Source: an uncultured Clostridia bacterium
Lineage (GTDB): Bacteria > Bacillota > Clostridia > TANB77 > CAG-508
Assembly: GCA_944387445.1 (NCBI GenBank)
Contig: CALXEX010000015.1
Location: 1-46,006, forward strand
Direction of reading: 5' to 3'
Length of the DNA: 46,006 nucleotides
The notes below the pieces were generated by a model. It was not told the origin of the DNA. It worked only from the letters and a program-made list of their open reading frames with translations, and made no database searches. Of the stretch, positions 14,861-22,834 are shown piece after piece. The position numbers and the translations under genes were made by a program. Each line of letters begins with the position of its first letter. Within the stretch, counting starts at the first letter, position 1.

Positions 14861-14950
14861 AAAGGAATTTTGGAGACGGACTCAAAAATCCCAATTTAAG
14901 AAAATTAACAGGGATTACAATAAATAAAAAATAACCAAGTGGAGGAAAAA

Positions 14951-16255
14951 ATGAATATTACATTAAAGGACATACAAGACTTTTCTAAAAAATATAATGA
15001 CAATCCAATCAATAAAGTGATTGAAAATGCAATTACAAATAATGGATTGGAAAATACGATGTTAGACGAAAAGATTATTGCTGAAAACCAGCCAGTCTTT
15101 AATATAGAATTACCTGTTCGTGTCAATAAATATGACCAAAAAAATAGTGCATTATGCTGGATATATGCAGGTATCAATATGATACAATTTGATGTAGCAG
15201 AAAATTTAAACATGGATGTAGAAAACTTAACATTATCACCTGTCTATATTTCATTTTTTGATAGGTTAGAAAAAGCAAGTGCAATATATGAAAAGATAAT
15301 TCGATTAGAAGATGCATCTTATGAATATATTAATGAAAATCGAATTATCGTCAATGCGCCATATACTTTAGGATTTTTTGAATTTTTTAGAGGGTTAATC
15401 AATAAATATGGATTTGTTCCTGATAGTGTTATGCCTGAAACTAAAGAAAGTATAAATAGCAACAGAGCAAATACTATTTATTGTGAAAAAATGATGGGTG
15501 ATGTTGTCAAACTGATAAAACTAAAAGAAGAAAATGCAAACATGGAAACATTAGAAAAGCAAATAAAAATATTTCTTGAAGAAAATTATATGTTATTATC
15601 AAAAATGTTAGGAGAACCTGTTCAAAAATTTACTTATGAATATATAGATAAAGACGGGAATTTCCAGCGATTAGAGAATATAACACCATTAGAATTTAAG
15701 GAACGATTTTTAAAAATAGATTTAAATGAATTTATATCGATTGCCAATATGCCTCGTCATAACAAAGAATATGGAAAAGTATATAAATATACAGGAAACC
15801 CAAGCGTAGAAGAATATACTTTTTTAAATCTACCAATTAATGAATTAAAAACATTAGCCATTAAACAATTAAAAGATTCTATGCCTGTTTATGTAAATTT
15901 ATACAGAAGACAGTTTCGTGATACACCATCAGGTGTACTAGATACAAGATTATATGATTATAAAAACGTATTAGGAGTAACACCTTTAACGAAAGAGGAA
16001 GGGCAAAATACAAATTCAATCCATTTTCATCATTGTATGGATATTTGTGGTGTGCATATAGTAGATGATAAACCAGTTAGATGGAAAGTAGAAGATAGTT
16101 TTGGAAATGCACTTAAAAATAAAGGATATAGTATTATGAATGACAATTTTTTTGATAAATACGTATTTGCTGTTATTATTCATAAAAAATATCTTTCTCA
16201 AGAACAATTAGAAGCTTGGAATCAACAGCCAATAGAATTTTCAATCTATACATAG
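14951..16255 (+). CDS. PepC/bleomycin hydrolase-like cysteine peptidase, copy 1 (Asn to Asp)
   Basis: A 434-residue papain-fold protein of the C1B aminopeptidase C/bleomycin hydrolase family, which normally forms cytoplasmic hexamers that trim peptides. I start at ATG 14951 (GGAGG at 14941-14945) rather than the in-frame GTG at 14939. The oxyanion Gln and nucleophile are in 'YDQKNSALCW' (Cys69), and the His is in 'HHCMDICG' (His361). The residue expected to be the catalytic Asn is Asp382 in 'RWKVEDSFGN' (family norm VENSWG). The normal C-terminal phrase is kept ('YVFAVIIHKKYL'). It sits between hndC and hndD and is followed 37 bases later by a paralogue. Activity is uncertain because of the Asp. 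Confidence 0.88.
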   Translation: MNITLKDIQDFSKKYNDNPINKVIENAITNNGLENTMLDEKIIAENQPVFNIELPVRVNKYDQKNSALCWIYAGINMIQFDVAENLNMDVENLTLSPVYISFFDRLEKASAIYEKIIRLEDASYEYINENRIIVNAPYTLGFFEFFRGLINKYGFVPDSVMPETKESINSNRANTIYCEKMMGDVVKLIKLKEENANMETLEKQIKIFLEENYMLLSKMLGEPVQKFTYEYIDKDGNFQRLENITPLEFKERFLKIDLNEFISIANMPRHNKEYGKVYKYTGNPSVEEYTFLNLPINELKTLAIKQLKDSMPVYVNLYRRQFRDTPSGVLDTRLYDYKNVLGVTPLTKEEGQNTNSIHFHHCMDICGVHIVDDKPVRWKVEDSFGNALKNKGYSIMNDNFFDKYVFAVIIHKKYLSQEQLEAWNQQPIEFSIYT

Positions 16256-16292
16256 GAAACCATCAATGCATCACATAATAAAAGGAGGAATT

Positions 16293-17633
16293 ATGGTAGA
16301 GATAACATTAGAAGATGTAAAAGCATTTTCCAAAGAATACAACGACAATCCAATCAATAAAGTGATTGAAAATGCCATTACAACAAATGGACTAGAAAAT
16401 GCTTGCTTAGATAGAGACATTATTAGAGAAAATCAACCTGTTTTCAATATTGAACTTCCAGATACCAAACGATATGATCAAAAAGAAAGCTGGAAATGTT
16501 GGATATATGCAGGATTTAATATGATTCAATATAATATGGCAAAAAATTTAAATATGGACTTAATGAACTTTGAATTATCAAGTAATTACATTGCTTTCTT
16601 TGATAAATTAGAAAAAGCAAATACAGTCTATGAAAATATTATCCGTTTACCTATTGAAAATGCAACTTTAAAATATATAAAAAAAGAACAATTATTAAAA
16701 AATTGTGTCACAGAAGCAGGATTTTATGAGTGGTTTGCAAGTATTATTAAAAAATATGGAATTGTACCATATTCTTATATGCCAAACCCAAAAGAAGGAG
16801 AAGATGGTGAGAAAATTTCTCTTATATTCAGAGAAAAAGTAAAAAAAGATGTTATACATATACTAAAAGAAAAACAACAAGGAAAAAGCGAAGAAGAACT
16901 AAGAAATCTGACAAAAACATATGCAAAACAAAATTACATATTTTTATCAAAAATCTTAGGTGAACCACCAATGACATTTGATTTGGAATATAAGGATAAA
17001 AATGGAACATACATATCGCAAAAACGCATAACACCAATGGATTTTAAAAATCAATACTTAACATTAAACTTGGATGATTTTGTATCAATTACCAATATGC
17101 CAATGTATAATAAAGAATATAATAAAATATATCGATTAAAACACTTTGGGAATGTGTATAAAAATAGTTATAGACAATTTTTAAATTTACCAATAGAAGA
17201 TTTAAAAAGATGTGCTATAGAACAACTAAAAGATGGTATTCCTGTATGTGTTACACTCGAAATTGAAAGCAAATCTGTATATGAAAAACAAGGCATTTTG
17301 GATACAAGAGTATATAATTATAAAAATACATTAAATATGCAATCACTTAATAAGAGAGAAGGCCTAGATTTTTCAGAAATTCATTTATCACATTGTATGA
17401 CAATTACAGGTGCCAATGTAATAAGTAACCATATTCAAAGATGGAAAGTAGAAGATAGTTATGGTGCAGGTCCAGATGAAAAACCAAATGGATATTATAC
17501 AATGAATGACAATTATTTTGATAAATTTGTTATGGATGTTATTATTAACAAAAGATATTTAACAGAAGAACAAAGAGAATTACTAAACCAAAAGCCAATT
17601 GAGTATGATATAGATATAGAAGACGAAATTTAA
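16293..17633 (+). CDS. PepC/bleomycin hydrolase-like cysteine peptidase, copy 2 (Asn to Asp)
   Basis: A 446-residue tandem paralogue of the preceding gene; the two share the N-terminal phrase 'NDNPINKVIENAIT' and the overall fold. The start is ATG 16293, with AAAGGAGG 4 bases upstream of the intervening TT; the earlier in-frame ATG at 16266 lacks a site. The nucleophile Cys69 is in 'DQKESWKCWIYAG' and the His367 in 'SHCMTITG'. As in copy 1, the triad Asn position is Asp (Asp388, 'RWKVEDSYG'). The C-terminal tail ends in an acidic 'IDIEDEI' rather than the usual PepC arm that reaches into the active site. The pair diverged by duplication and the Asp came first. A hydrogenase maturation role is possible but unproven. 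Confidence 0.88.
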   Translation: MVEITLEDVKAFSKEYNDNPINKVIENAITTNGLENACLDRDIIRENQPVFNIELPDTKRYDQKESWKCWIYAGFNMIQYNMAKNLNMDLMNFELSSNYIAFFDKLEKANTVYENIIRLPIENATLKYIKKEQLLKNCVTEAGFYEWFASIIKKYGIVPYSYMPNPKEGEDGEKISLIFREKVKKDVIHILKEKQQGKSEEELRNLTKTYAKQNYIFLSKILGEPPMTFDLEYKDKNGTYISQKRITPMDFKNQYLTLNLDDFVSITNMPMYNKEYNKIYRLKHFGNVYKNSYRQFLNLPIEDLKRCAIEQLKDGIPVCVTLEIESKSVYEKQGILDTRVYNYKNTLNMQSLNKREGLDFSEIHLSHCMTITGANVISNHIQRWKVEDSYGAGPDEKPNGYYTMNDNYFDKFVMDVIINKRYLTEEQRELLNQKPIEYDIDIEDEI

Positions 17634-20506: not shown

Positions 20507-20583
20507 ATTACATAGAACATTTTATGTTCTATATAATAAAAAATAATATTGCACAGAAAAATTGCATAGCAATTTTTCGCGTC

Positions 20584-20670
20584 GACAAATCTTTACGCTT
20601 TTTCGAGAACTTATATTTATATGGTTAAATGAGAAAAACAGAAAAAAGTTCTCTCAAAGCGAGATTTGTC
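20584..20670 (+). promoter_or_regulatory. Long interrupted hairpin in the uraA-upp leader
   Basis: Two arms pair in blocks: GACAAATC...CGCTTT...GAGAACTT on the left with AAGTTCTC...AAGCG...GATTTGTC on the right, enclosing a ~33-base loop, 40 bases before the start codon. The order of paired blocks separated by small internal loops is RNA-like. I looked for the PyrR-binding consensus and did not find it, and no T tract follows, so this is not a plain terminator. Confidence 0.5.
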
Positions 20671-20710
20671 CCATTAAACACTTACTAAGAAAATAGAAGG
20701 AGGCGTTCTA

Positions 20711-22747
20711 ATGGAACAAACAAAAAAACTACTATTAGATGTTAACGAAAAACCAACCATTGCCAAATGGATAATCCTTGCGTTACAACATGTTTTTGCT
20801 ATGTTTGGAGCAACCATTTTGGTTCCTATCATGGTTAACACATCAGCAGGGGAGACAGTTCTTACCATTCCAGTTGCATTGGTAACATCAGGAATTGGTA
20901 CATTAATCTATATTTTATGTACAAAAGGAAGATCACCTGTATATTTAGGAAGCTCTTTTGCATTTATTGCACCACTAGCAGCAGCTTATGTAAAAGGTGG
21001 AATTTCAGGTGCCATGATTGGTGTTATGGCAGTAGGTCTTGTCTATGTTATTTTTGCAATCATTATTCATTTTATAGGTAAAAAATGGATAGACAAATTA
21101 TTACCACCAGTTGTTATAGGACCAATGATTATGATTATAGGTTTAAGTTTAGCACCAAATGCAATTTCTCAAATAGGATTAGGAACTGGAACACAAATTG
21201 ATTGGAGATGTATTGCAGTTGCTTTAATTACCTTTCTAACAACAGCAATTGTTATGGTTAGAGGAAAAGGATTCTTGAAAATTATTCCATTTTTAGTTGG
21301 AATTGTTGTAGGATATATTTCAGCAATCTGTTTTGGATTGGTTGATTTTGCACCAGTATTAGAAGCTAGCTTTTTCAGTATGCCAAACTTTGTAATACCA
21401 TTCTTAAATTATGCACCTAACTTTTCAGCATTATTAACCATTGTACCAATTTCTTTGGTAACCATTGCAGAGCATATTGGTGATCATACAGCATTAAGTA
21501 CGATTATTGGAAAAAATTTATTAAAAGATCCTGGATTAGACAGAACCTTATTAGGTGACGGTTTAGCAACATTTGTAGCAGGATTTTTAGGAGGACCAGC
21601 AAATACTACTTATGGTGAAAATACATCTGTAGTAGGAATGACAAAAGTAGCATCTGTATGGGTTATTGGACTAGCAGCAGTTATTGCTATTTGCTTAGGA
21701 TTTTTAGGAAAATTTACTGCATTGGTATCAACCATTCCTGATGCCGTTTTAGGAGGTGTATCTTTATTACTATATGGATTTATTTCTGTAAATGGTTTAA
21801 AAGTATTAATCGAAAATAAAATTGATTTCGGAAAATCTAAAAATATTGTTGTTGCATCTACTATGTTGGTATTAGGATTAGGAGGGGCAGCAATCTCAAT
21901 TGTAAATGGAGATTTATCTGTAACGATTTCAGGAATGAGTTTAGCAGCGATTATTGGTATTTTATTAAATTTATTATTACCAGATGAAAAAGAAGATGAT
22001 TCCAATAAACCAGAAAATGAAGGGACAAAAGAAACTACCAATGAAACAAAAGAAGATAAAAAAGAAGTAAAATATGAAAGTGGGGCAAATACAATGGAAG
22101 AAATCAAAAAGGAAACATACAACAATGTAACTGTATTAAATAATCCTTTAGTAGAACATAAGTTATCAATTATAAGAAACAAACATACAGGAACAAAGGA
22201 ATTTAGAGAAATTATTGGAGAAATAGCAACCTTATTATGCTATCATGCATTAGAAGATGCTAAATTAAAAGAAACAGAAATTGAAACACCAATTTGCAAA
22301 ATGAAAGCCAGAGTATTAGATGAAGATAATTATGCATTTGTACCAATTTTAAGAGCTGGAACTGGTATGTTAGATGGATTATTAAAAATTGTACCAAATG
22401 CAAAAATTGGACATATTGGATTATACAGAAATGAAGAAACTCTAGAGCCAGTACAATATTATTATAAAATGCCAAAAGATATTGCTAAAAGAGAAGCCAT
22501 TATCTTAGACCCAATGCTTGCAACAGGTGGTTCTGCAGATGACACAATTAAAATGTTAAAAAAAGACGGTGTTAAAAAAATAAAATTCTTATCTATAATA
22601 TCTGCACCAGAAGGTATTGAAAGATTAAAGAAAGAACATCCAGATGTAAAAATTTATACAGCATGTATTGATGAAAAATTAAATGACAAAGGATATATTG
22701 TACCAGGACTAGGTGATGCTGGAGATAGAATATTTGGAACAAAATAA
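20711..22747 (+). CDS. Fused uracil permease (NCS2/UraA) - uracil phosphoribosyltransferase (Upp)
   Basis: One open frame of 678 residues joins two enzymes that are normally separate. Residues 1-423 are a complete NCS2 uracil/xanthine permease: 'AEHIGDHTALSTIIG' and 'NTTYGENTSVVGMTKV' are the substrate-site segments, with about 14 membrane segments. Residues 424-461 are a charged Lys/Glu/Asn linker. Residues 462-678 are a full uracil phosphoribosyltransferase, with 'HKLSIIRNKHTGTKEFRE', 'PILRAGTGM', the PRPP loop 'ILDPMLATGGSADDT' and the uracil-site end 'GLGDAGDRIFGTK'. The reaction is uracil + PRPP to UMP + PPi. If the permease has the known NCS2 topology, the transferase faces the cytoplasm. 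An internal ATG at 22094 has only a weak site (GTGGGG), so separate Upp is possible. The main ribosome site is AGGAGG. Confidence 0.95.
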   Translation: MEQTKKLLLDVNEKPTIAKWIILALQHVFAMFGATILVPIMVNTSAGETVLTIPVALVTSGIGTLIYILCTKGRSPVYLGSSFAFIAPLAAAYVKGGISGAMIGVMAVGLVYVIFAIIIHFIGKKWIDKLLPPVVIGPMIMIIGLSLAPNAISQIGLGTGTQIDWRCIAVALITFLTTAIVMVRGKGFLKIIPFLVGIVVGYISAICFGLVDFAPVLEASFFSMPNFVIPFLNYAPNFSALLTIVPISLVTIAEHIGDHTALSTIIGKNLLKDPGLDRTLLGDGLATFVAGFLGGPANTTYGENTSVVGMTKVASVWVIGLAAVIAICLGFLGKFTALVSTIPDAVLGGVSLLLYGFISVNGLKVLIENKIDFGKSKNIVVASTMLVLGLGGAAISIVNGDLSVTISGMSLAAIIGILLNLLLPDEKEDDSNKPENEGTKETTNETKEDKKEVKYESGANTMEEIKKETYNNVTVLNNPLVEHKLSIIRNKHTGTKEFREIIGEIATLLCYHALEDAKLKETEIETPICKMKARVLDEDNYAFVPILRAGTGMLDGLLKIVPNAKIGHIGLYRNEETLEPVQYYYKMPKDIAKREAIILDPMLATGGSADDTIKMLKKDGVKKIKFLSIISAPEGIERLKKEHPDVKIYTACIDEKLNDKGYIVPGLGDAGDRIFGTK

Positions 22748-22797: not shown

Positions 22798-22834
22798 AAA
22801 GAGACAATTAGAACATAACTCTAATTGTCTCTTT
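22798..22834 (+). terminator. Intrinsic terminator after uraA-upp
   Basis: A perfect 15-bp stem (AAAGAGACAATTAGA / TCTAATTGTCTCTTT) with a 7-base loop. It also faces the 3' end of the small minus-strand ORF. Confidence 0.85.

Follow-up and report, generated by a model that had tools for sequence, protein, structure and literature searches.

A uracil permease and a uracil phosphoribosyltransferase joined in one clostridial gene, with a conserved internal start from which free enzyme is probably also made

It has long been asked whether nucleobases are transported and captured at a single site during uptake. A gut-type bacterium, an uncultured member of the Clostridia, carries a uracil importer and the enzyme converting uracil into a nucleotide in a single gene. 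The window, that is, the whole stretch of DNA analysed, comprises 46,006 nucleotides (contig CALXEX010000015.1, assembly GCA_944387445.1). A fused uraA-upp gene occupies positions 20711 to 22747 of its forward strand as a stop-free open frame of 678 codons, beginning with the ATG at 20711 and closing with a stop codon whose last base is 22747, and its strong ribosome-binding site (AAGGAGG, 20697 to 20703, + strand) has a duplex energy of -12.2 kcal/mol. The computed mass of the full-length protein of 678 amino acids (72.8 kDa) agrees with the approximately 72 kDa expected in an earlier note on this DNA, which had also described a complete NCS2 permease and a complete uracil phosphoribosyltransferase (Upp) in the one frame. 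Pfam, NCBIfam and alignments to solved structures concur on this arrangement. The NCS2 permease domain (residues 1-425; 20711 to 21985, + strand) is matched by PF00860 (residues 19-394; 312 bits against a cut-off of 27) and by TIGR00801 (ncs2; residues 15-422; 391 bits against 292), while the Upp domain (residues 473-678; 22127 to 22744, + strand) is matched by PF14681 (residues 475-677), PRK00129 (286 against 114) and TIGR01091 (upp; residues 473-678; 287 against 208), the last two passing curated equivalog thresholds. The structures of UraA (3qe7) and Upp (1i5e) align with residues 8-423 and 473-678, respectively. The Upp half contains the stretches DPMLATGGSA, the presumed PRPP loop, and GYIVPGLGDAGDRIFGTK, with PGLGDAGDRIFGTK as the presumed C-terminal uracil site, so that both sites described earlier as intact are present. 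Most of the DPMLATGGSA and PGLGDAGDRIFGTK columns are invariant in the 23 fused sequences aligned. Between the two halves lies a linker (residues 423-472; 21977 to 22126, + strand), the length and sequence of which vary among relatives. Its charged character, as noted earlier, is borne out (25 charged residues of 50), but the length of 38 residues first given for it corresponds to the span separating the end of the permease from Met462, the gap between the TIGR00801 and TIGR01091 matches being 50 residues.

The permease half resembles the Escherichia coli transporter UraA along its full length. The substrate-site glutamates Glu241 and Glu290 of UraA correspond to E254 and E303, and both are invariant in 23/23 aligned fused sequences. 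It differs from UraA in the replacement of His245 by an equally invariant aspartate (D258; 23/23) and in bearing the linker and Upp in addition. PRK10720, the NCBIfam equivalog for uracil permease, misses its cut-off (411 bits against 477), and the permease half, a full-length match to the NCS2/NAT family, is a putative uracil transporter. According to PMC5539350, UraA has both its N and C termini in the cytoplasm and has to be dimeric.

A perfect inverted repeat of 15 bp follows the gene (22798 to 22834) and is terminator-like, although it received a score in the scan for the minus strand alone. A promoter scan, with 16 sites against 19.3 expected, was uninformative. A riboswitch or attenuator upstream of the gene was considered and dropped, there being no Rfam match at the gathering score in the whole window and the hairpin-rich leader being absent from some relatives. 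A palindromic leader stretch (20574 to 20670), found in some close relatives and missing from others, is perhaps a small mobile repeat. Elsewhere in the window, positions 14939 to 17633 hold a tandem pair of C1-family peptidase genes (PF03051).

The fused frame recurs throughout the close relatives of the window. Among 210 genomes of its genus that were searched, 83 have a match, and 21 of these carry the window-type fusion, each as a distinct gene sequence holding both domains in one stop-free frame (21/21; the N terminus of L129 is lost at a contig end). Two further genomes of the genus (G305 and G356) carry another fusion type, the fusion of G393 is truncated by a contig end, and no split loci with more than 90 % permease identity were seen. 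The linkers of this window clade have eight lengths, each a multiple of three. The assembly error considered in the earlier note is rejected because many genomes share the in-frame join with differing linker lengths. The fusion is the sole match in 20/21 window-clade genomes, the second match in G332 being the absent N-terminal part of the fusion, which lies on a separate contig, and one match only is likewise present in the genome of the window, whose assembly is 80.6 % complete. The remaining 127 of the 210 genomes of the genus are without a match to either permease or Upp. Within the window clade, the permease and Upp have dN/dS values of 0.039 and 0.030, respectively, as compared to about 0.44 for linker residues 425-453; both domains are under purifying selection and the linker evolves freely.

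A second product may arise from the same frame. The internal start at 22094, called weak in the earlier note, lies at the position given there, but the nucleotide-level conservation of its start codon and ribosome-binding bases makes it better supported than first thought, as judged from the comparison of sequences. The predicted product, free Upp, would span 22094 to 22747 (+ strand) and comprise 217 amino acids (24.4 kDa), and is preceded by the candidate ribosome-binding site GTGGGG (22080 to 22085, + strand), for which GTGAGG or GCGAGG is found in 19/21 sequences of relatives. All 21 window-clade sequences have ATG or GTG at this one position, preceded by a GAG or GGG codon that builds the ribosome-binding site, and the codons leading up to the core of Upp (residue 474) follow the pattern AGY, GAG/GGG, GCN, AAT/GAT, any codon and ATG/GTG. 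At residue 458, glutamate is encoded by GAG in 19/19 sequences, the remaining two having GGG, while GAG makes up 7.9 % of the glutamate codons in 36 other columns of the gene, none of which is all-GAG (0/36). Similarly, valine at residue 462 is GTG in 10/10 sequences, the remaining eleven having ATG, as compared to 4.5 % GTG among the valine codons of 55 other columns (all-GTG columns 0/55). Under a two-codon model on the clade tree, which ignores rate differences between columns and was applied post hoc to a pattern already seen, the likelihoods of these patterns are 3.8e-7 (residue 458) and 0.0026 (residue 462). At least four switches between ATG and GTG have occurred at residue 462 on the tree. 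Furthermore, dS over residues 454-463 is 0.21 as opposed to 0.42-0.67 in the other four segments; in a scan of synonymous change with a sliding window of nine codons, the internal start is absent from the twelve lowest windows. The amino acids of this stretch, YxSEANx(M/V)E, are conserved in the window clade as well.

In the predicted fold, the internal ribosome-binding stretch and the surrounding RNA are unpaired, and no RNA structure spans the internal start. By predicted ribosome pairing, the internal site ranks first in 20/21 sequences when ATG and GTG starts are compared, and in 18/21 when TTG is added. Since a first-ranked start is also found there in two sequences of the f5/g8 group (L036 and L039) and in L040, the pairing rank alone says little, and predicted pairing is only moderately discriminating. 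On the codon evidence, the gene of the window probably makes both a tethered and a free Upp.

The search for other proteins combining NCS2 and Upp domains, proposed in the earlier note, was productive, with clean fusions present in 31/287 genomes of the order; the fusion is therefore not unique to the window. These genomes fall into the window's genus (13), g21 (3), g28 (2) and g8, which belongs to another family (13). In samples of the class (291 genomes) and phylum (398 genomes), in which scoring covered the few top candidates of each genome, so that rare fusions may be missed, the clean fusions among the matches listed are those of the window and G037 (same genus) in the former, and in the latter the window's own gene alone spans both domains; outside the order no fusion occurs among the matches listed in either. 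In two class-sample genomes (G612 and G418), the two domains share a frame that is interrupted by a stop. The scan of genome contigs comprised the best 80 matches and leans toward close relatives. The best ten of 537 matching records in the plasmid collection all have two pieces (seven annotated as two genes, three unannotated), and none of 16 relatives on viral contigs extends beyond query residue 470.

The fused groups are not alike in their internal starts. An ATG with a fair ribosome-binding site, three codons ahead of the Upp core, is found as Upp's own start in 4/4 sequences of g21 and in 3/3 of the L020/L021/L134 group, whereas the free Upp predicted for the window clade starts twelve codons ahead of the core. 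The f5/g8 sequences are fused in 10/10 tree rows and share no internal start, three of the ten having none in the tested range, with a strong one in L036 and L039. Three of the five members of the L030/L035/L040/L041/L066 set are likewise without an internal start in the tested range, and L040 has a strong GTG. The pure-fusion genomes of f5/g8 have a single match in 13/13 cases. These patterns suggest that the fusions are of two kinds, one which keeps the free enzyme and one in which Upp is mainly or only tethered. In 12/13 f5/g8 fusion genomes, a protein of approximately 550 residues with a uridine-kinase-like domain is encoded shortly upstream on the same strand (L031:2336-3988 and equivalents), and in L031 an MgtC-family gene lies between this gene and the fusion.

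Altogether 113 loci with both domains were collected, of which 92 are different; these comprise 43 fused loci, 30 split in different frames and 19 whose single frame is interrupted by a stop. In a tree built from 88 loci (41 fused and 47 split), the fused or split label requires nine changes, of which at least six are forced by well-supported branches; this tree was built rapidly, leaves many forks open and does not distinguish gain from loss. Two split loci, L022 and L004, are nested in fused groups. In L004 the linker is interrupted by a stop, past which homologous linker can still be read and Upp is intact, and this locus looks like a former fusion that a single stop codon has divided again. 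In L066 the permease, and in L053 the Upp, lies in two frames, through either real decay or sequencing error.

The carriers differ in their capacity for pyrimidine synthesis. PyrB is present in 20/21 window-clade genomes and 14/14 control genomes, but in 0/3 genomes of g21 and 0/13 fused f5/g8 genomes, and dihydroorotate dehydrogenase is strongly matched in 11/11, 0/3 and 0/11 of the genomes tested from the window clade, g21 and f5/g8, respectively. PyrB, PyrC, PyrF, PyrK and PyrD are encoded close together on contig 7 of the window's own genome, and because they are kept the species is not obviously dependent on uracil. The PyrE profile gave mostly weak matches under the cut-off and was uninformative as a marker of de novo synthesis. 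Near the pyrimidine genes on the same contig (L168:12339-13262) there is a PyrE-like protein of 307 residues, far under the curated cut-offs, which may be a divergent orotate phosphoribosyltransferase (PyrE). The uridine kinase profile has some match in 26/26 genomes and exceeds its cut-off only in the seven window-clade genomes tested. Judging by gene content, de novo pyrimidine synthesis is probably available to the window's species and probably beyond the f5/g8 species. With a single match in 13/13 of the latter, PyrB in 0/13 and a strong dihydroorotate dehydrogenase match in 0/11, the fused protein is probably both required and functional as a fusion in f5/g8; nucleoside salvage may serve these species as well.

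The explanation which best accommodates these findings, and which we hold to be reasonably likely, is that one frame yields two proteins, an Upp tethered to the permease and a free Upp, with the trapping of uracil as the proposed advantage. Translation from 20711 would give a uracil permease, the cytoplasmic C terminus of which bears Upp on a flexible charged tether of approximately 50 residues, and translation from 22094 would give the free Upp of 217 residues. As the termini of UraA are cytoplasmic, tethered Upp would sit beneath the transporter exit, where it would convert incoming uracil to UMP and thereby maintain a steep inward gradient, while the free Upp would supply the remaining subunits of the oligomers and act in the cytosol. 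With no other upp seen in these genomes, the single gene would supply the entire uracil salvage step. That both products are made is suggested by the sequence comparisons, the tethered Upp is presumably active, and the proposed benefit of trapping is consistent with the UraA topology described in PMC5539350. A more elaborate form, which we put forward as a tentative possibility, is a fixed mixture of tethered and soluble Upp in which mixed oligomers under the permease dimer would pass uracil to PRPP at the transporter mouth, such that import and capture form one unit; auxotrophic relatives would then have dropped the free form, with salvage becoming wholly membrane-bound.

The main and serious rival, albeit a less likely one, is that the fusion is near-neutral, two translationally coupled neighbouring genes having lost the stop that separated them. 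The tether would then be tolerated with no gain from trapping, and the internal start would be retained because the free Upp does the work. The repeated switching between fused and split states (at least six changes on supported branches, with the split L004 and L022 within fused groups) also fits a near-neutral fusion, as do the short distance between permease stop and upp start in split relatives and a linker that is free to evolve. It accords poorly, however, with the f5/g8 group, in which all ten sequences are fused without a shared internal start, such that the tethered form is apparently the only Upp, and the genomes are without PyrB. Far less probable is a gene that makes the fusion only, with YxSEANx(M/V)E as a protein motif such as a binding site and no free Upp in the window clade. 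Conservation of the stretch as amino acids, and the existence of other fused groups without a shared internal start, would suit such a gene, but selection on amino acids leaves unexplained the use of GAG in 19/19 and GTG in 10/10 sequences and the alternation of ATG with GTG, and the changes from glutamate to glycine retain the third-position G. Finally, the source is a draft genome of 69 contigs, in which an assembly or sequencing error might have joined two genes, but this is very unlikely in view of the same join, with differing linker lengths, in 21 genomes of the genus and the additional fusions in g8, g21 and g28.

No report of a fusion of NCS2 permease and Upp was found in the open-access literature, and uraA and upp are treated as separate steps in a review (PMC13328217). 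Compared to neighbouring uraA and upp genes, the split relatives have the same gene order, many with the upp start soon after the permease stop, whereas the window gene has no intervening stop and encodes one polypeptide. In group translocation by the phosphotransferase system (PTS), import is spatially coupled to the chemical capture of the substrate. The likeness of the fused protein to the PTS would lie in this coupling of import and capture in space, but it has no PTS domain, and it instead combines a permease of a proton-symporter family with a separate capture reaction on a tether, and is thus at most PTS-like. With its several gains or losses within a single order, this naturally occurring importer-enzyme fusion would provide a direct test of the coupling of transport and capture. 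With genes that have in-frame internal starts, such as that reported for the archaeal CRISPR protein Cas11b (PMC11899642), the window gene would share nested products from one frame; it would differ from them in that its shorter product corresponds to the complete enzyme moiety of a fused transporter and enzyme. The kept internal start would make this gene a clean case of an operon condensed to one frame with both products retained.
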